Of a stretch of DNA of 64,000 bases, positions 3,246 through 11,601 are shown piece by piece; the stretch's first letter is position 1; the number at the start of each line of letters is the position of its first letter. The DNA is taken from contig NZ_CP045295.1 in assembly GCF_009363095.1 (NCBI RefSeq), forward strand, positions 3,894,001 through 3,958,000, written 5' to 3'. The DNA comes from Paenibacillus cellulositrophicus. GTDB taxonomy: Bacteria > Bacillota > Bacilli > Paenibacillales > Paenibacillaceae. The notes under the pieces were generated by a model. That model saw nothing but the letters and a program-made list of their open reading frames with translations. It searched no databases and was not told where the DNA came from. Position numbers and translations under genes: made by a program.

Positions 3246-5348
3246 ATGAATATCAATACCATCTACTTACGAAGAGCCAATCATCTGATTGTGGAACAAG
3301 GGCAGGGAGGCGAAACGCTCCCGAAAGCCTACTTGGCATCCGCCCTGAAAAATATCGAAGTGCTGGGATATACGTTTTCATATGCGCTGCTGCGCGCGGT
3401 AAAAGACTTATCTAAAGTGCAGTTTGAAGCATTATACCAACAGCTGGTTGCGGATTTACAGGTTATGGTCGGGGCTCATGTGGAGTTCAAACCGATGTAC
3501 CCGGATTTTCCGATGCAGGTCATGGAGCATAGCGATGCCGAGCTGTATCTGAATGCGATTTATCATTACCTGACGTTGGATGTACCGGCGTATGAGCATG
3601 CGGACCGGCTGCCCCTGGAGGATGAAGGTAACCTGAAAGTGATTGGTTTGGGGAGCCGTGCGGAGTTCATGAGCCTGATCTCCCGGTTGATTCAAGCCAA
3701 AGGCTCCATCTCCGATCGTGACAAACAGGATATTGATGACGTCATTGCATTTTCCGGCGCGGATGATATGGAAATGCTTCTTCCAGACGACATCCCGTTC
3801 AAGGAAAATGCGGCATTCGTCGCTGCGTCCTTAATGAAGTATGACAAAGCCAATCTGGAGCAGATCGGACGGTACTTCCGGACAGCGACCGATGTCCTTC
3901 GGCTGGCAGCCGCATGGTCGGACGGCGACGTCAGTCTCGCCGAGGCGACGCGCTTCCGCAAATTCAAACGGCGCGAGCGACGGCTGCTGCTGGGACTGCT
4001 CGAGAAGTGCCAATCCATCACGGAAGATATGCTGCGGTACAAGGAGCGCTGGATTCGGCTGGGCGAAATTCTGCATCCTTCCGAATATAAGCATCGCTTT
4101 CGGCGGTGCGAGGAAGCCTTTGACGTCGTGCGCAACGACAAGCCATTCACGTCCTTTAACGGAAGCGTGGAGCTGGCCTTCCAGTTCCGGAACGTATGGA
4201 CGCTGATCGATCTCTTAATGCAGCGCCCGGGCGAACTGGCGAGAAGGCTCGATCATCTGCTCCGGTCCACCGAGCATACGGAGTATGTCGTGCTGGCTTT
4301 TGGTGAGGTGGTTAAGGAAGTATCGACGCCGGTGCTGCTGCAGGTGAAGAACCATTTTGCCCGCCGCCGTGAACGGCAGCAATTGCGCGTCTTTTTTCCA
4401 AAAGGGAATGTCGCCAAAGCGTTTGCCCTTCGGAACAACCTGCCGGAGATTGACGAGGAGGCATGCCGGGACATCGTGCAGCTATGCGAGCAGGCGCTGA
4501 TCGTGCGCTTCTCTGCCCTGCCGCCGCTCGGGAAGGTGTATGTCGACAAGCGGCTCCAAAGCTACCTCGTACCGTTCTCCGGGCGCTCTGCCAGCAAAGC
4601 GCTGCATACGATCGTGCGTGGCAGCCGGGTGCCGATGGCGGAAGGAGATACGATCCGTTTCTTCAGCTGGTGGAAAGAGGGCCTGGTGGACGGCAAGCCG
4701 ACGGGCCGCGTGGACATCGACCTGTCCGCCGTAATGTATGACCGTGACTGGCAGTATGTGGAGCATATTTCGTATACGAACTTACGGTCGTCCAAGTACC
4801 GGGCCGTGCACAGCGGAGATATCGTAACGGCCCCTCAAGGCGCGTGCGAGTTTATCGACCTGCACATTCCTTCCATCGTCGATTATGGCGGACGGTATAT
4901 TGTGGCGACGCTGCATTCGTTCACAAGCCAGCCGTATTGCGATTTGCCGGAGTGCTTTACGGGTTGGATGATGCGGAAGAAACCCGGGTCCGGCGAAATT
5001 TTTGAGCCTGGTACGGTTGCGAACAAAATCGATGTCACCGCCGATACGCAGATTGCCATCCCCGTAATCTTGGATCTGGTAGAACGCACGGTGATCTGGA
5101 CGGACCTGTCTTTAACCCGGCATCCGTACTATTACAACAACGTCGAGGGGAACCAAAAAGGGATGATCCTGATGGGCAAAGCGATGACGACTTTGCGGAA
5201 ACCAGATTTGTATGATCTGTTCACGCTCCATGCCAAGGCCCGCGGGGAGCTGACCGAAACTCCGGGGGAGGCCGATGCGGTGTTCTCTGTGGAGCAAGGG
5301 GTAACTCCCTATGATATCGAGGAAATTATGGCGGAATATATGGTGTAG
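3246..5348 (+). CDS. Large cytoplasmic protein with TerD-like C-terminal domain (MXAN_6230/SCO0854-like)
   Basis: The protein is 700 aa and has no signal peptide or membrane segments. Residues ~1-420 are mostly helical, without motifs I can name. Residues ~435-650 look like the TerD/TerE fold of tellurium and stress-resistance proteins: VDIDLSAVMYDRDWQYVEHI, YTNLRSSKYRAVHSGDIVTA and EFIDLHIPSIVD parallel the TerD core in which a strand pair is followed by HSGD. From memory this matches the MXAN_6230/SCO0854 family of TerD-linked proteins, though the RING-like cysteines of some members are not evident. A TAA codon abuts the ATG at 3246, so no upstream in-frame start exists; the ribosome binding site is poor. 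It is preceded by an ankyrin gene and a structured leader and ends in the terminator at 5389. Confidence 0.65.
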   Translation: MNINTIYLRRANHLIVEQGQGGETLPKAYLASALKNIEVLGYTFSYALLRAVKDLSKVQFEALYQQLVADLQVMVGAHVEFKPMYPDFPMQVMEHSDAELYLNAIYHYLTLDVPAYEHADRLPLEDEGNLKVIGLGSRAEFMSLISRLIQAKGSISDRDKQDIDDVIAFSGADDMEMLLPDDIPFKENAAFVAASLMKYDKANLEQIGRYFRTATDVLRLAAAWSDGDVSLAEATRFRKFKRRERRLLLGLLEKCQSITEDMLRYKERWIRLGEILHPSEYKHRFRRCEEAFDVVRNDKPFTSFNGSVELAFQFRNVWTLIDLLMQRPGELARRLDHLLRSTEHTEYVVLAFGEVVKEVSTPVLLQVKNHFARRRERQQLRVFFPKGNVAKAFALRNNLPEIDEEACRDIVQLCEQALIVRFSALPPLGKVYVDKRLQSYLVPFSGRSASKALHTIVRGSRVPMAEGDTIRFFSWWKEGLVDGKPTGRVDIDLSAVMYDRDWQYVEHISYTNLRSSKYRAVHSGDIVTAPQGACEFIDLHIPSIVDYGGRYIVATLHSFTSQPYCDLPECFTGWMMRKKPGSGEIFEPGTVANKIDVTADTQIAIPVILDLVERTVIWTDLSLTRHPYYYNNVEGNQKGMILMGKAMTTLRKPDLYDLFTLHAKARGELTETPGEADAVFSVEQGVTPYDIEEIMAEYMV

Positions 5349-6230: not shown

Positions 6231-6329
6231 CATAAATGCTATGCAACTCCTTGAGGCTGCCGCGGCCTGGAGAACCGCCTGCGGAAAATGCTATAATCAC
6301 ACCAAGAGTATATCGCAGGGGGAATGAGG

Positions 6330-7358
6330 ATGAGCGAGGATCTGTTGGAACAGCTGGAGACATGGCATGAAGAGGATGAATACGAACGCATCGTAGAGGC
6401 CGTAACGGAAATTCCTGCGGAGGAGCGGAATTATGAGCTGGTCGGCCATTTAGGCCGGGCGCTGAACAATCTGGAGCGTTACGAGGAGGCGGTGCAGCAG
6501 TTTCTGACCGTTGCCGAGGAAGGGGCGGAAGATCCGCTCTGGCATTACCGGATTGGACTGGCCTATTATTACCTGGAGCAGTACGATGACGCCGAGCGGG
6601 AGTTTACTCGTGCCGATGAGCTGGAGCCGGGGGATGAGGATACCCTGGAGTTTCTGGAATGGATCCGTGCCAAGAAGGACGGGGAATTCGAGGAAGAGTC
6701 GGATGATCATTTGGATTCAGACGATTCGGCAGAAGACAACAGCGGCTCGGATGAAGCCGGGGAAACCGATGAAACGGACAGTGCCGCGGCGGCCGTGTCT
6801 TCGGTGGATGCCATCCCATCGGACGAAGCCAATTTAGATGTGCAGTATGACTCGCCAAATGAGGGTTTCGATATCAACAACTTCTGGAACGACGCTGATC
6901 CCGATGCGGAATCGTATGTTTCGGCTCCGCCGACGGATGATCTGATCGATTCCGTGCAGGAGGAACTGGTGTTCAAGCTGCCGGTGTTTTATGTGCAGAT
7001 GATGAGAATACATAACGGGGGCATTCCCCGCAGCAGGTACTTTCCGCTGGGTGAAGCCGCAGTTGGAGCGCCAAGCGGGGTCCGGATTAACGGCATGTTC
7101 GGCATCGGCCGGGTCAAAGCCAAGTCGCTCTGCGGGGCCTCCGGCAGCCGGTCTATCATCGGGAACGGTGGTTATCCGGAGTTCGGCGTCGTCATTTGCG
7201 ACTGCCCGCAGGAGTCCGGCGTGATCATGCTGGATTACCGCGGCTCCGGCAACGATGGAGAGCCTGAGGTTGTGCATGTGGATCAGGCAAACGGGCGTAA
7301 GATCACCCGGCTCGCGCCCGATTTTGAAACCTTTGTCCGCGGACTAGTTAACGCCTAG
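6330..7358 (+). CDS. TPR protein with C-terminal SMI1/KNR4 (SUKH) domain
   Basis: The protein is 342 aa and cytoplasmic. Residues ~1-110 carry tetratricopeptide-like helices (GHLGRALNNLERYEEAVQQF, YRIGLAYYYLEQYDDAEREF). Residues ~115-165 are a very acidic, Ser/Asp/Glu-rich linker. The C-terminal ~150 residues match the SUKH fold (VFYVQMMRIHNGGIPRSRYF, IGRVKAKSLCG, GVIMLDYRGSG). SUKH proteins often act as immunity or partner-binding modules, but no toxin gene is adjacent. AGGGGGA is six bases from ATG 6330; an ATG two codons upstream is less likely. A terminator lies at 7433-7472 between it and the convergent tatC. Confidence 0.85.
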   Translation: MSEDLLEQLETWHEEDEYERIVEAVTEIPAEERNYELVGHLGRALNNLERYEEAVQQFLTVAEEGAEDPLWHYRIGLAYYYLEQYDDAEREFTRADELEPGDEDTLEFLEWIRAKKDGEFEEESDDHLDSDDSAEDNSGSDEAGETDETDSAAAAVSSVDAIPSDEANLDVQYDSPNEGFDINNFWNDADPDAESYVSAPPTDDLIDSVQEELVFKLPVFYVQMMRIHNGGIPRSRYFPLGEAAVGAPSGVRINGMFGIGRVKAKSLCGASGSRSIIGNGGYPEFGVVICDCPQESGVIMLDYRGSGNDGEPEVVHVDQANGRKITRLAPDFETFVRGLVNA

Positions 7359-7504: not shown

Positions 7505-8275
7505 TTAGGTTGCCGAATAGGAGCCATCCGTGACGGCATGCTCCAATGCTTCTTTCGCACGCTGTTTCTTGCGATGCACCCAACCGGTCAGCCAAGCGCT
7601 GATTTCGTACAAGGCGATGAGCGGAACAGCCACCATGAGATGGGAGACAAGGTCAGGCGGCGAGATCAGTGCAGCCACGGCAACCAGAACGACGTACGCG
7701 TAACGCCTCATTCCTTTTAGAATCGACGGGTTTAAGATCCCGATCCGGGCCAGAAACATAACGATCACGGGCAGTTCGAAGGCAATGGCGAGCGGGATCA
7801 TGATATTGAACATAAACCCGAAGTACTGGGATACCCCATAGGTCTCCACAAGGCCGATCTGACGGTTGATGCCGGCTGTAAAGCGCAGGCTCATCGGAAA
7901 GACGACGAAATACGCAAAGGCCACGCCCACCAGAAAGCATGATGCGGAGAACGGAATGTAGCGGACCGCCGCCTTTTGCTCGCCAGGCTTGAGTCCCTGG
8001 CTGACAAACCGCCAAATCTGGTACATGCCAAAGGGTATGGTCGGCAGCAGCGACAGTATCACGGCAATGCTCATATAAATCCGCAGTCCGTCCCATGGCG
8101 AGAAGACGTTCCATGCGACGTGGAGTGGGGAATGCGTCCGCAGCAGCGTCAGGATATGAGGGGCTGCAAACAAGCCGGCTGCCATACTGACGATGAATAC
8201 GGCGGCGATCCAAAGGATCCGTTTTCTAAGCTCGGCGATATGCCCAAGCAGGGTCATCGTATTTTTCGCTTCCAT
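7505..8275 (-). CDS. tatC: Sec-independent protein translocase TatC
   Basis: Polytopic membrane receptor for twin-arginine signal peptides. The 256 aa fit the family, with six predicted membrane segments. Signature residues are present: HIAELRKRI at the N-terminus (signal-peptide site), GLKPGEQK in the first cytoplasmic loop, FELPV in segment 4 and SPPD before segment 5. It is transcribed behind the GlnR/TnrA-like gene (32-bp gap), presumably as one operon, and is divergent from a Tat-signal amine oxidase and tatA, which marks it as the dedicated translocon subunit of this cluster. Confidence 0.95.
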   Translation of the reverse strand: MEAKNTMTLLGHIAELRKRILWIAAVFIVSMAAGLFAAPHILTLLRTHSPLHVAWNVFSPWDGLRIYMSIAVILSLLPTIPFGMYQIWRFVSQGLKPGEQKAAVRYIPFSASCFLVGVAFAYFVVFPMSLRFTAGINRQIGLVETYGVSQYFGFMFNIMIPLAIAFELPVIVMFLARIGILNPSILKGMRRYAYVVLVAVAALISPPDLVSHLMVAVPLIALYEISAWLTGWVHRKKQRAKEALEHAVTDGSYSAT

Positions 8276-8307
8276 AGGCGAAGATCACTCCTCCCAAGTC
8301 ATGTCCG

Positions 8308-8559
8308 TTACCGGAAGGCCGGCGTGCAGCGCGGCGTTTTCGATTTTTTCATTTCCTTCAGCTCCAGCGTATTAAATCCCTCCTGCATTTTTTGATAGAT
8401 GTCCTGAATGGCCTTTACGTCTTCAAAAGAATATCGGCGGTTACCTCCTTTCGTCCGCTCCGGGAAGATCAGCTTTCGTTCCTCGTAATACCGGATTTGG
8501 CGTTCCGACAAGCCGGTCAGCTCGCAGACGATCCCAATGCTCATCACCTTGCTCTCCAT
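8308..8559 (-). CDS. Short GlnR/TnrA-like MerR-family regulator
   Basis: An 83-aa DNA-binding protein whose winged-helix part closely resembles Bacillus TnrA/GlnR (SIGIVCELTGLSERQIRYYE, then KLIFPERTKGGNRRYSFEDV). TnrA is about 110 aa and GlnR about 135; here the chain ends at LKEMKKSKTPRCTPAFR, so the C-terminal region that in TnrA/GlnR senses feedback-inhibited glutamine synthetase is absent or replaced. The start is ATG 8559 with AGGAGGT upstream; a longer frame to 8658 lacks a ribosome site. It is followed by tatC, and a consensus TnrA/GlnR box lies in the divergent region (8745-8761). It probably controls the amine oxidase operon and perhaps itself. Confidence 0.85.
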   Translation of the reverse strand: MESKVMSIGIVCELTGLSERQIRYYEERKLIFPERTKGGNRRYSFEDVKAIQDIYQKMQEGFNTLELKEMKKSKTPRCTPAFR

Positions 8560-8744
8560 GCTATTTACCTCCTGTGCAAGTATAGTTAACCCCGGACCAT
8601 TGCAGAAACGGCCAGGATTGAAACCTAGAAGAAGATAAAACAAAGAGAAGAAACACACAAACAGATGTTTATGGAAGGAATTATGACATGATTTTAAGGA
8701 AAACCCATTAAAAATGCAATCGGTTTTTAAAAATAAAAAATCCC

Positions 8745-8761
8745 TGTAAGAAATCCTTACA
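8745..8761. promoter_or_regulatory. TnrA/GlnR-type operator box
   Basis: TGTAAGAAATCCTTACA fits the TGTNA-N7-TNACA consensus at every fixed position. A plausible promoter follows (TTCACC 8766-8771, TAAGAT 8791-8796; spacer 19), putting the start near 8803 and the box centre near -50, which is the position from which TnrA is known to activate. The promoter assignment is inference. Confidence 0.75.
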
Positions 8762-8838
8762 CAAATTCACCGAAAACTAAATTTCTTTGCTAAGATCGCC
8801 TCAAGAGGTTCCATTCCACTAGCGAAGGAGTGAACGAG

Positions 8839-10443
8839 GTGACAATCAAGGAGCAACCGAAAGAGATGACCCGCAGACAATTTCTGTCGACCGTCGGCAA
8901 AGTAGGGGGATCCGTTGCCGTCTTCAGCCTGATGGGAACGATGGGACTGCTGTCGCCGGAGACGATGAAGGCCGCCGAATATGAGCCGCCGGGCCCGAAT
9001 GATCTGCACTTAAGCGGACGGGGCGGCAAAAAAATCATCATTCTCGGCGCCGGGATCGCCGGCATGACGGCAGCGTACGAACTGGGATTGGCCGGGTACG
9101 ACTGCACGATTCTCGAGGCAAAAAGCCGGGCTGGCGGCCGATGCTGGACTATTCGCGGCGGCACGTCAGAGGCGGAAATCGGTTCGGGTACCCAAACGTC
9201 CCGCTTCGATAAGGGCTTGTATTTCAATGCCGGCCCAATGCGCATTCCGCAGTTCCATGTCACCCTGGAGTACTGCCGGAAATTCGGCGTTGCGATCGAA
9301 CCGTTCAACAACGTGAACGAAAGCGGCTATTACTACAACGAAAACGTCGGTGCTTTATCCGGTCAAAAGGTGCCGAAGCGGGCGGCCAAAGCAGACGTAC
9401 GCGGCTACGTCGCGGAAATGCTCGCCAAGGCGGTCGACCAGAACGCGCTCGATCTTCCGCTCACGGCTGAAGAGAAGATGAAGCTCGTCGATTACTTAAA
9501 GGTGGAGGGGGACCTGAACCCCGATTTGTTCTACAAAGGCTCGCAGCGCGGCGGATACAAGGATGAGCCGGGGAGCCGGCTTGATGCCGGGGTTCTCCGC
9601 GATCCGTTCGATCTAAAGTCGATCATCAACTCCGGCTTCGGCAAGTATTTCAGCAATGAGTACGAATACGACCAGCAGATGATGATGTTCCACCCGATCG
9701 GCGGGATGGACGCCATTGCGAAGGCGTTCGAGAAGCGGATTGGCAATCGGATCAAATTCCGGGCCGAGGTCAAGGAGATCCGCCAGTCCTCGTCGGGCGT
9801 GAGAATCGTGTACACCGACATGGCATCCGGCCGGGAGCAGGAGGTCAAAGGGGATTACTGCATCTGCACCATTCCGTTATCCGTGCTGAAGAAGATCCCC
9901 GCTGATTTTTCCCCCGAAATGTCCAAGGCGATTCAGAGCATCAATTACGCCTCTGCCGGAAAGATCGGCCTGCAGTTCAAGCGGCGCTTCTGGGAAGAGG
10001 ATGAGCACCTGTACGGAGGCAGCAGCTTGACGAATATGGACATTACGCAGATATATTACCCGCCGACCGATTATTTCGGGAAAAAGGGAGTCCTCCTCGG
10101 CTACTATGCCTACGGCGGGGTTGCCGACAAGCTCGGAGCGATGTCGTACGCGGAGCGGGAGAAGCTGGCGCTGGCACAAGGGGCCAAAATCCATCCGCAG
10201 TATCCAAAAGAGTTCGAATCCTCCTATTCGATCAACTGGAAAACGATCAAGTATCAAGAGGGCGGCTGGGTTTCATACTCAGCAAACGACCGCAAAACGT
10301 ACTATCCGACACTGTGCAAGCCTGACAACCGGATTTACCTGGCGGGTGAGCATATCAGCTACATTACTGCTTGGCAGGCCGGAGCGATCGAGTCCGCCCG
10401 TGAGGTGGTCACCGATATCCATCAGCGTGTCATGAAATCATAG
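8839..10443 (+). CDS. Tat-exported flavin monoamine / L-amino-acid oxidase
   Basis: FAD enzyme that oxidises an amine or amino acid to the imine with release of H2O2; the imine then hydrolyses to a keto acid or aldehyde plus ammonia. Visible features are a twin-arginine motif (MTRRQFLSTVG), a hydrophobic stretch and an AA cleavage site near residue 46, then the dinucleotide fold IIILGAGIAGMTAAYELG with the GG doublet EAKSRAGGRCWT, and the C-terminal FAD motif IYLAGEHISYITAWQAGAIE. Length (534 aa) fits L-amino-acid oxidases. GTG 8839 is eight bases from AAGGAG; a GTG at 8830 overlaps that site. It is first gene of an operon with an exported RidA and tatA, and a TnrA/GlnR box lies just upstream. 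The substrate cannot be read from sequence. Confidence 0.92.
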   Translation: MTIKEQPKEMTRRQFLSTVGKVGGSVAVFSLMGTMGLLSPETMKAAEYEPPGPNDLHLSGRGGKKIIILGAGIAGMTAAYELGLAGYDCTILEAKSRAGGRCWTIRGGTSEAEIGSGTQTSRFDKGLYFNAGPMRIPQFHVTLEYCRKFGVAIEPFNNVNESGYYYNENVGALSGQKVPKRAAKADVRGYVAEMLAKAVDQNALDLPLTAEEKMKLVDYLKVEGDLNPDLFYKGSQRGGYKDEPGSRLDAGVLRDPFDLKSIINSGFGKYFSNEYEYDQQMMMFHPIGGMDAIAKAFEKRIGNRIKFRAEVKEIRQSSSGVRIVYTDMASGREQEVKGDYCICTIPLSVLKKIPADFSPEMSKAIQSINYASAGKIGLQFKRRFWEEDEHLYGGSSLTNMDITQIYYPPTDYFGKKGVLLGYYAYGGVADKLGAMSYAEREKLALAQGAKIHPQYPKEFESSYSINWKTIKYQEGGWVSYSANDRKTYYPTLCKPDNRIYLAGEHISYITAWQAGAIESAREVVTDIHQRVMKS

Positions 10444-10471
10444 ATTCATATCTAGAAGGGGCTGGTCTTTT

Positions 10472-11032
10472 ATGATGAAAAAAATGAAAACAGCGCTGCT
10501 GATGACAGTTCTGCTTGGCACCGTCAGCGTCACGGCATATGCCGACAGCGCCGCCCATACCCCGGCGAAACCGGCCAAGCCGATCAAGACGGCGCCGGCG
10601 CCGGTATTTTACGGCAGCCCGTCGTCGTCCATATCCAGCGGCGTAGTCGTTCCCGAAGGCGCATCGTACTTGTTCACGAGCGGCACCGTCCCGCCGGTGC
10701 TGAACAAGGACGGCAAGACGGTCTATGAACGCTATGGGGATACGAAAACGCAGGGTATCGGCATTTTGAAGGAAATCGAAAAGCAGCTGAAGGAGCAGGG
10801 CCTTGGTCTGAAGGATGTCGTTTACCTGCGGATATACATCGCTCCTGACGCGCAGAAGGGCGGCACGTTTGATTATACGGGTTGGTTCGATGCCTATGCG
10901 CAGTTCTTTAATACTGAAGCCAATCCGGTAAAGCCGGCCCGTTCAACGGTAGGCGTGGCGAGCCTGGTGAGTTCCGACTGGCTGATCGAGATCGAAGCGG
11001 TGGCCGTGAAGCCGGATTCGAAGAAGAAGTGA
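10472..11032 (+). CDS. Exported RidA (YjgF/UK114) family protein
   Basis: RidA enzymes hydrolyse reactive enamine/imine intermediates. The core is complete: YLFTSGTVPP, the catalytic-type arginine R157 in PARSTVGVASL and the acidic residue in LIEIEAVAV. Unlike ordinary cytosolic RidA (~125 aa), this 186-aa form has an N-terminal signal peptide (KKMKTALLMTVLLGTVSVTAYA, cleavage expected after Ala24) and a Pro/Lys/Ala-rich spacer. There is no twin arginine, so it probably leaves through Sec. It sits 28 bp behind the imine-producing oxidase and 66 bp before tatA, implying that both enzymes work outside the membrane on successive steps. Confidence 0.92.
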   Translation: MMKKMKTALLMTVLLGTVSVTAYADSAAHTPAKPAKPIKTAPAPVFYGSPSSSISSGVVVPEGASYLFTSGTVPPVLNKDGKTVYERYGDTKTQGIGILKEIEKQLKEQGLGLKDVVYLRIYIAPDAQKGGTFDYTGWFDAYAQFFNTEANPVKPARSTVGVASLVSSDWLIEIEAVAVKPDSKKK

Positions 11033-11098
11033 GGCAGGAGCACGGATTTCGCTAAGGCGGAATGTTCTCCATGACAAATGAGAAGGAGCTGATTGGCT

Positions 11099-11308
11099 AT
11101 GTTTCAAAACGTAGGATTTGCCGGGTTGATGATGATTCTGGTCGTCGTGCTGATTTTGTTCGGGCCCTCCAAGCTGCCGGAGCTGGGCCGTGCGGTGGGA
11201 CGCACGCTCTCCGAATTCAAGTCGTCCGCCAGGGATTTGGTCGGTGAGGATAAAGAAGAAGACAAAGAGCGTGAGCGAGAGTCCGGTATCATTAAAATCA
11301 AAGGATAA
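11099..11308 (+). CDS. tatA: Twin-arginine translocase subunit TatA
   Basis: Pore-forming Tat subunit, 69 aa: short N-terminal membrane helix (FAGLMMILVVVLILFGPSKL), the FGPSKLPELGRA hinge and amphipathic helix, then a charged tail (DKEEDKERERES). ATG 11099 is ten bases from AGAAGGAG; a TTG two codons earlier is too close. It is the last gene of the oxidase-RidA operon, ending at a 14-bp stem terminator. With divergent tatC it makes a minimal TatAC pair of the kind Bacillus uses for single substrates. Confidence 0.95.
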   Translation: MFQNVGFAGLMMILVVVLILFGPSKLPELGRAVGRTLSEFKSSARDLVGEDKEEDKERERESGIIKIKG

Positions 11309-11353
11309 AGGGTAGGACCAACGTATCCGCCGATCAACGGCCACCCTGTTAGC

Positions 11354-11389
11354 CAGCCCCGTCATTCAACGCGAATGACGGGGCTGTTT
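11354..11389 (+). terminator. Terminator of the amine oxidase-ridA-tatA operon
   Basis: Perfect 14-bp stem (CAGCCCCGTCATTC and its complement) with a five-base loop, followed by TTT. Confidence 0.85.
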
Positions 11390-11601
11390 GCGCCCAGCCG
11401 GCCGAAGCGCATCATGGCCTCCACCGCTGTGTTCTTTTATAATGGAAGAACCAGGCATAGTTTGGCCGCTGAAGTTCTGGGCCGCATAATAAATTTGATA
11501 CGGCACAGGATATGAAGCAGTGGAACCGGCCTTGGCCATAAGACAATCAGGCTGTCATCATGCGAAGAATGATTTTACTAGGATTGAAAAAGGAGACCTT
11601 T

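Follow-up and report, generated by a model that had tools for sequence, protein, structure and literature searches.

The locus described here raises the question of why a bacterium should keep genes for both TatA and TatC, components of twin-arginine translocation (Tat), directly beside a single flavin oxidase. It is a five-gene island in a 64 kb stretch (hereafter the window) of the 7.4 Mb genome of Paenibacillus cellulositrophicus (G000), in which tatC and a short MerR-type gene lie on the minus strand and are followed by the divergent genes for the oxidase, a Rid-family protein and tatA on the plus strand. Our analyses make it likely that the island encodes an L-amino acid oxidase (LAAO) module that works outside the cytoplasm under nitrogen regulation and has its own TatAC pair, and it appears to be a conserved cassette of the Paenibacillus group of soil bacteria, in which an exported enzyme that strips amino acids and its clean-up partner are encoded alongside a translocon and a nitrogen switch. 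The predicted genes, the Tat motif, the Sec-like signal, the operator, the conservation and the TatC lineages are the parts of this reading that are backed by sequence. The features of the island are as follows.

7505..8275, minus strand: tatC, 256 amino acids (aa), second gene of a merR-tatC unit (PF00902, 3.4e-54; TIGR00945 over its cut-off)
8308..8559, minus strand: tail-less MerR regulator of the TnrA/GlnR type, 83 aa (the frame as listed opens at 8658)
8745..8761, plus strand: GlnR/TnrA operator TGTAAGAAATCCTTACA, the sole exact match to TGTNAN7TNACA in the window
8788..8796, plus strand: probable extended -10 element TGCTAAGAT, with a putative start site near 8803
8839..10443, plus strand: LAAO with a Tat signal (listed from GTG 8830; PF01593, 1.2e-56)
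10472..11032, plus strand: Rid-family imine deaminase, Rid3-like, with a Sec-type signal (PF01042, 4e-14)
11099..11308, plus strand: tatA (frame from TTG 11093, ATG 11099 being the likelier start; PF02416, 1.5e-20)
about 11354..11386, plus strand: hairpin 3' of tatA with 14 pairs and a weak U-tract, a possible terminator

All five genes that the first-pass annotation had placed in this divergent layout were recovered, four of them by their Pfam families and the regulator by a structure match to TnrA. The strong terminator with which it closed the oxidase operon was only partly borne out: the 14-pair hairpin lies in a strongly folding segment (11340-11400, -30.9 kcal/mol, z -5.85), but it has a weak U-tract and is absent from the output of the terminator scan.

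The grouping is not a matter of chance, since 35 of the 37 other Paenibacillaceae oxidase loci hold all five genes (tatA and the regulator in 37, Rid and tatC in 36 each); at L092, L093, L094 and L095, tatC lies 3' of tatA rather than divergent from it. A wider survey covered the best 80 of 588 confirmed places, comprising 43 Bacilli and 37 non-Bacillota loci (the named loci below). The oxidase and Rid were present in all 43 Bacilli loci, tatA in 42 and tatC in 37; 30 loci held all five genes, six lacked tatC, six lacked the regulator and one lacked tatA, with the tatA-less L113 and the tatC-less L132 both situated at contig ends. Recurrence of the five genes in relatives, on which the first-pass annotation had staked its reading, is thus seen in both sets. 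Among the non-Bacillota loci, 22 have Rid and 15 do not, and no Tat genes were found within 4 kb in any of the 37 (six of which have less than 2 kb on one side). Oxidase and Rid would therefore appear to form the older and wider association, which the Tat genes may have joined later in the Bacilli.

The oxidase was found in 38 of 197 genomes of the family, and the 20 further genomes of the same genus that were listed all lack it; this patchy distribution suggests transfer or loss. A recent foreign insert was rejected on composition, the G + C content being 54.0% in the island and 54.4% in the window. The nearest named locus, in Paenibacillus rhizosphaerae, encodes an oxidase that is 98% identical; in that assembly (L133, 5878-7603) it is split over two overlapping frames, through either a pseudogene or an assembly error, and intact copies are present elsewhere. 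On a Metabacillus plasmid (L025) the order is oxidase-rid-tatA-tatC, and an annotated metallo-beta-lactamase gene (2167-2970) lies about 2 kb 5' of the oxidase operon.

The link to nitrogen proposed by the first-pass annotation was strengthened by an operator footprint. The operator consensus of GlnR and TnrA is TGTNAN7TNACA (PMC9948412), and 8745-8761 is a perfect match. Taken alone, this match is weak: one exact match in 64 kb compares with 0.29 expected, and 21 of 100 shuffles contained at least one. In 71 related intergenic regions, however, the exact operator occurs in 63 (94 boxes in total; shuffle mean 0.56, maximum 3), and in 56 regions it stands 75-100 bases 5' of the oxidase start (shuffle mean 0.055, maximum 1), the controls being dinucleotide shuffles, in which kinship among loci is not preserved; the window and these 63 regions would thus carry at the promoter the operator of a GlnR/TnrA regulon. 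For this set, about 350 bases upstream were taken at the regulator-less loci; ten of the 43 named Bacilli loci shared their intergenic region with a member of the first set and were removed as duplicates, and L140 was dropped as empty owing to a misassigned regulator hit. The evidence lies in the frequency and position of the box, because any row aligned on the pattern necessarily has its half-site letters. Six members of the first set (n = 39) have no operator at this position, and in five of the six a box with a single mismatch stands 87-94 bases 5' of the start.

Downstream of the operator, 56 box-aligned rows share a -10 consensus, with TG at +44/+45 (0.71 and 0.73), T47 (0.73), A48 (0.79), T51 (0.91) and T52 (0.79); the element in the window is one base nearer to the operator. 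The operator centre falls at about -50 relative to the putative start site near 8803, which we take to be the position from which TnrA activates. A second operator close to the start of the regulator gene is present in many of the loci but absent from the window. Across G000, a stricter operator pattern was found at six places, against three for a reversed-pattern control, and one of the six lies upstream of a glnR-like gene, which is followed by a glutamine-synthetase-like gene.

The enzyme under this promoter had been called a flavin amine oxidase. Its place in the flavin amine oxidoreductase family stands (PF01593), but it is more exactly LAAO-like: in the structure search its best solved relative was the LAAO of Rhodococcus opacus (2jae, 1e-123), followed by snake and other LAAOs, and an amine rather than amino acid oxidase was rejected because LAAO structures outscore amine oxidases by far. 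R138, Y426 and W480 are invariant in 10 of 10 aligned rows and presumably correspond to Arg84, Tyr371 and Trp426 of the R. opacus enzyme, which we take to bind the substrate (manual count, the chain numbering being one lower); the carboxylate-binding Arg and Tyr of an R. opacus-type LAAO would thus be R138 and Y426. A search of open-licence PubMed Central (PMC) found no paper joining R. opacus, LAAO and Arg84. The twin-arginine motif reported earlier, TRRQFL, is present, and a Tat motif was matched in each of the 39 oxidases that were scanned, namely that of the window, that of the Metabacillus plasmid and those of 37 relatives, with the RR pair invariant in 10 of 10 aligned sequences. Ribosome-site spacing makes GTG 8839 a likelier start than GTG 8830. 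The predicted substrates are L-amino acids, with O2 as the probable acceptor.

The partner gene encodes a Rid protein whose R157 is kept in 38 of 38 sequences (36 relatives, L025 and the window); from the PARS/TARS motif we take this residue to correspond to Arg-105 of RidA, which marks deaminases. Its nearest solved relatives are PFL1385 (9bkc, 4.4e-23) and PSPTO3006 (1.5e-21), the next match being at 1.1e-6. Both are Rid3 proteins under published subfamily names, and they are described as acting in vitro on imines produced by snake LAAO (PMC5619798); the island Rid shares with them the conserved deaminase arginine (PMC5619798). Its predicted secretion signal may set it apart from PFL_1385 and PSPTO_3006. 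Judged by eye, the Rid N-termini are Sec-like, with an AxA-type site in 37 of 38; a Tat motif was matched in none of the 38, the Rid of the window has no RR, and that of L062 has an RR pair upstream of its likelier start. With a Tat motif on the oxidase and a Sec-like signal on Rid, the two proteins seem to leave the cell by different routes. The signal-bearing Rid that clears imines, as envisaged in the first-pass annotation, agrees with both the predicted signal and the imine-acting Rid3 relatives.

From these components, a sequence of events can be proposed. Under nitrogen shortage (the direction of regulation being a prediction), a protein of the TnrA/GlnR type bound to the operator at 8745-8761 would activate the extended -10 promoter of oxidase-rid-tatA, while TatC would be supplied by the divergent merR-tatC unit. 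TatA and TatC would form a minimal translocase, by which, we infer, the island oxidase is exported folded and loaded with FAD, and Rid would be exported unfolded via Sec. Outside the cell, the oxidase would convert L-amino acids to imino acids, accompanied by H2O2 where O2 accepts the electrons, and hydrolysis of the imines by Rid would yield keto acids along with ammonium, the latter for uptake. The role of the cassette is thus probably to gain ammonium from amino acids outside the cell.

A different electron acceptor is conceivable. An oxidase acting as a dehydrogenase that feeds electrons to the respiratory chain, with no H2O2, is suspected for relatives adjacent to cytochrome c, but we consider it unlikely in the island. 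At L027 (Comamonas) and L028 (Microvirga), genes annotated as cytochrome c and RidA lie 3' of the oxidase, and in Duganella a haem-motif frame follows the oxidase in 8 of 8 loci. Around the 43 named Bacilli oxidases, by contrast, only two haem-motif frames were found, both on the minus strand (the scan took frames over 80 aa in the named loci), and the closest characterised relative, the R. opacus LAAO, uses O2. In Gluconacetobacter diazotrophicus, the lao-cccA-ridA operon joins a Tat-signal LAAO to a Rid protein, as the island does, and its demonstrated role is the synthesis of indole-3-acetic acid (IAA), of which cytochrome c maturation mutants make little (PMC5053998). That operon contains a cytochrome c gene, and its description makes no mention of tatA, tatC or a TnrA-type regulator (PMC5053998); in the window, no cytochrome c gene separates oxidase and rid, which are 28 bases apart.

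Several observations weigh against a nitrogen-regulated LAAO module with a dedicated translocon. L059 has no Rid, and six of the 43 named loci, all Bacillaceae, have no adjacent regulator (L139 having only 440 bases upstream). The exact operator is missing from eight of the 71 intergenic regions. A lipobox-like cysteine lies within the signal of 25 of 38 Rids, so that Rid may be membrane-anchored as a lipoprotein in many relatives, and the copy in the window has no lipobox. The local regulator is, by its predicted sequence, without the nitrogen-sensing tail of TnrA and GlnR. In addition, G000 encodes three further TatCs beyond the island copy, and six loci (L062 in G162, L106, L108, L112, L126 and L127) have the oxidase, Rid and tatA with no tatC nearby; another TatC must therefore serve there, and these loci would argue against a strict dependence of the oxidase on the island TatC.

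With regard to the regulator, its best solved relative is TnrA of Bacillus subtilis (4r22, 3.3e-23; 4r24, about 3e-23), with GlnR weaker (3e-15). It thus has the same kind of MerR DNA-binding domain, and the same operator consensus, as TnrA and GlnR of the Bacilli (PMC9249791, PMC6191146, PMC9948412). The GlnR/TnrA-like gene of the first-pass annotation is upheld for this domain but not for the rest of the protein, which has 83 aa (73-96 in 37 relatives), scores 109.6 bits with the NCBIfam TnrA model (cut-off 140) and, judged by length and alignment, has no C-terminal tail for binding glutamine synthetase. A start at ATG 8559, after AGGAGG, fits the relatives, although the listed frame opens at 8658. 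Accidental shortening in the host genome was rejected, as the 37 relatives are equally short. In TnrA and GlnR the tail, which the island protein lacks, is described as binding feedback-inhibited glutamine synthetase (PMC9249791), and a tail-deleted GlnR of P. polymyxa showed stronger DNA binding with no help from glutamine synthetase (PMC6191146). By analogy, the island regulator may bind DNA constitutively. Without the tail, sensing of glutamine synthetase by the known mechanism is not expected, and the nitrogen response must therefore pass via the host GlnR or another route; we propose competition between the island protein and the host GlnR at their shared operator. A homologue of the regulator (E 1e-14) was detected in all 38 genomes with the oxidase and in 3 of the 159 without it (Fisher 1.6e-37). 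Two of these three, L229 and L230 (the third being L231), hold a TnrA-like gene with a longer C-terminus divergent from a glutamine synthetase gene (confirmed by Pfam in L229 and by eye in L230). The presence of this gene in two Paenibacillaceae contrasts with P. polymyxa WLY78, which is reported to lack tnrA (PMC9948412).

The further TatCs and the tatC-less loci would also fit an alternative in which the Tat genes are mere neighbours, the general Tat system exporting the oxidase and the local TatAC being a spare copy. We regard this as improbable. The oxidase is linked to tatC in 36 of 37 relatives and in 37 of the 43 named Bacilli loci, and to tatA in all 37 relatives and in 42 of the 43, where the one exception (L113) lies at a contig end; moreover, two TatC lineages adjoin the same core, and a second cassette joins TatA and TatC to another Tat protein.

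In a tree of 78 TatCs, the 21 type-1 island TatCs, that of the window included, form a single clade (support 97/93) apart from the other TatCs included, among them those of the same genomes, and the type-2 island TatCs fall elsewhere. A single origin of all island TatCs was rejected (p-AU 7.6e-56, with long branches such as L135 present; the test was run after a quick tree had been viewed, and the island group was defined by gene context). As types 1 and 2 are separate and a single origin is rejected, the island TatCs are, on this tree, from at least two lineages, and TatC was evidently acquired or replaced there more than once. The careful tree took 78 of 110 TatCs and 21 of 53 type-1 rows, and one TatC (G190, contig 39) was not included. 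In the quick tree, a clade of 13 TatCs stands next to type 1 (support 81), and six of its loci have a Tat frame of the gluconate-dehydrogenase type, the remaining loci being covered by flanks of 1.5 kb. The island of L135 (8230-9507, Bacillus sp. FJAT-44742) combines a tandem pair of tatA genes with a TatC that has diverged strongly.

G000 itself has four tatC and five tatA genes. One tatA/tatC pair (L011, 5411-9256) lies beside a GMC oxidoreductase and a Tat-signal gluconate-2-dehydrogenase subunit 3, and a lone tatA (L013, 5399-8190) is found by a second GMC oxidoreductase gene with a similar Tat-signal frame; these two loci form an apparent further set of substrate-linked Tat genes. The other two pairs adjoin, by eye, a groEL-like gene (L010) and pyrimidine-type genes (L012).

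The second cassette occurs in G103, which also has the oxidase island. There (L232, G103:C18, 198-3097), tatA faces a gene for a mini-TnrA, with tatC and a Tat-signal amidohydrolase (PF07969, 2.7e-24) alongside; an exact operator lies at 2826, between regulator and tatA, and the amidohydrolase N-terminus aligns with the oxidase signal region over 42 residues at 50% identity. With a mini-TnrA, TatA and TatC here paired with another Tat enzyme, this one example suggests a portable unit of regulator plus translocon. More tentatively, a TnrA stripped of its tail may have become a local activator, blind to glutamine synthetase, with a portable export cassette of its own. This cassette would consist of regulator, TatA, TatC and operator and would serve nitrogen-scavenging Tat enzymes, the oxidase in the island and the amidohydrolase in G103, with the nitrogen response arising from competition at shared operators between a constitutively binding mini-TnrA and the host's GlnR.

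The least probable alternative is a device for antagonism or signalling, in which H2O2 or keto acids (indole-pyruvate giving auxin) hit competitors or plants and ammonium is secondary: LAAOs do release H2O2, and lao insertions in the lao-cccA-ridA cluster of G. diazotrophicus are reported to abolish IAA (PMC5053998), but the GlnR/TnrA operator couples expression to the nitrogen state, and what Rid accelerates is the liberation of ammonium and keto acid rather than that of H2O2.

The nitrogen-regulated LAAO module is built from kinds of components that are already known. A TatA-TatC pair beside one Tat substrate, co-regulated by nutrient state, is found in phoD-tatAdCd of B. subtilis; unlike the island, that locus is under phosphate control, exports a phosphodiesterase and has no Rid partner. 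An exported LAAO with Rid has been described in G. diazotrophicus and Chlamydomonas (PMC5053998, PMC10805672). The periplasmic LAO1 and LAO2/RidA of Chlamydomonas are reported to be induced when nitrogen is limiting and to be required if Trp is to support growth as nitrogen source (PMC10805672). As in our model, an exported oxidase and Rid there yield ammonium from amino acids under nitrogen limitation; the system differs in being eukaryotic, with no private Tat translocon and with different regulation (PMC10805672). The first-pass annotation knew of no description of the five-gene combination. Our searches of open-licence PMC found none, nor any paper there with 'amino acid oxidase' plus TnrA, but the pairing of exported oxidase and Rid is not new. 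What is new is the operator and its conservation, the tail-less TnrA-type regulator, at least two lineages of island TatC and the second, amidohydrolase cassette.

Many bacteria hold several TatC paralogues, among which the division of labour is poorly known. At the island, one TatC lineage is found, naturally and repeatedly, in the company of a single folded flavoenzyme, and the presence of another lineage in the same seat makes substrate specialisation of TatC paralogues directly testable. In addition, our analyses suggest that Bacilli gain ammonium from outside amino acids by nitrogen-controlled oxidation, a route known in an alga, and a naturally tail-less TnrA offers a tool to ask what role the glutamine-synthetase tail plays.

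Two neighbouring genes precede the island in the window. An open frame of 700 aa (3246-5348) has no Pfam match (E 0.001), and the gene at 6324-7358 encodes TPR repeats joined to a SUKH/SMI1 domain, a type frequent among immunity proteins.

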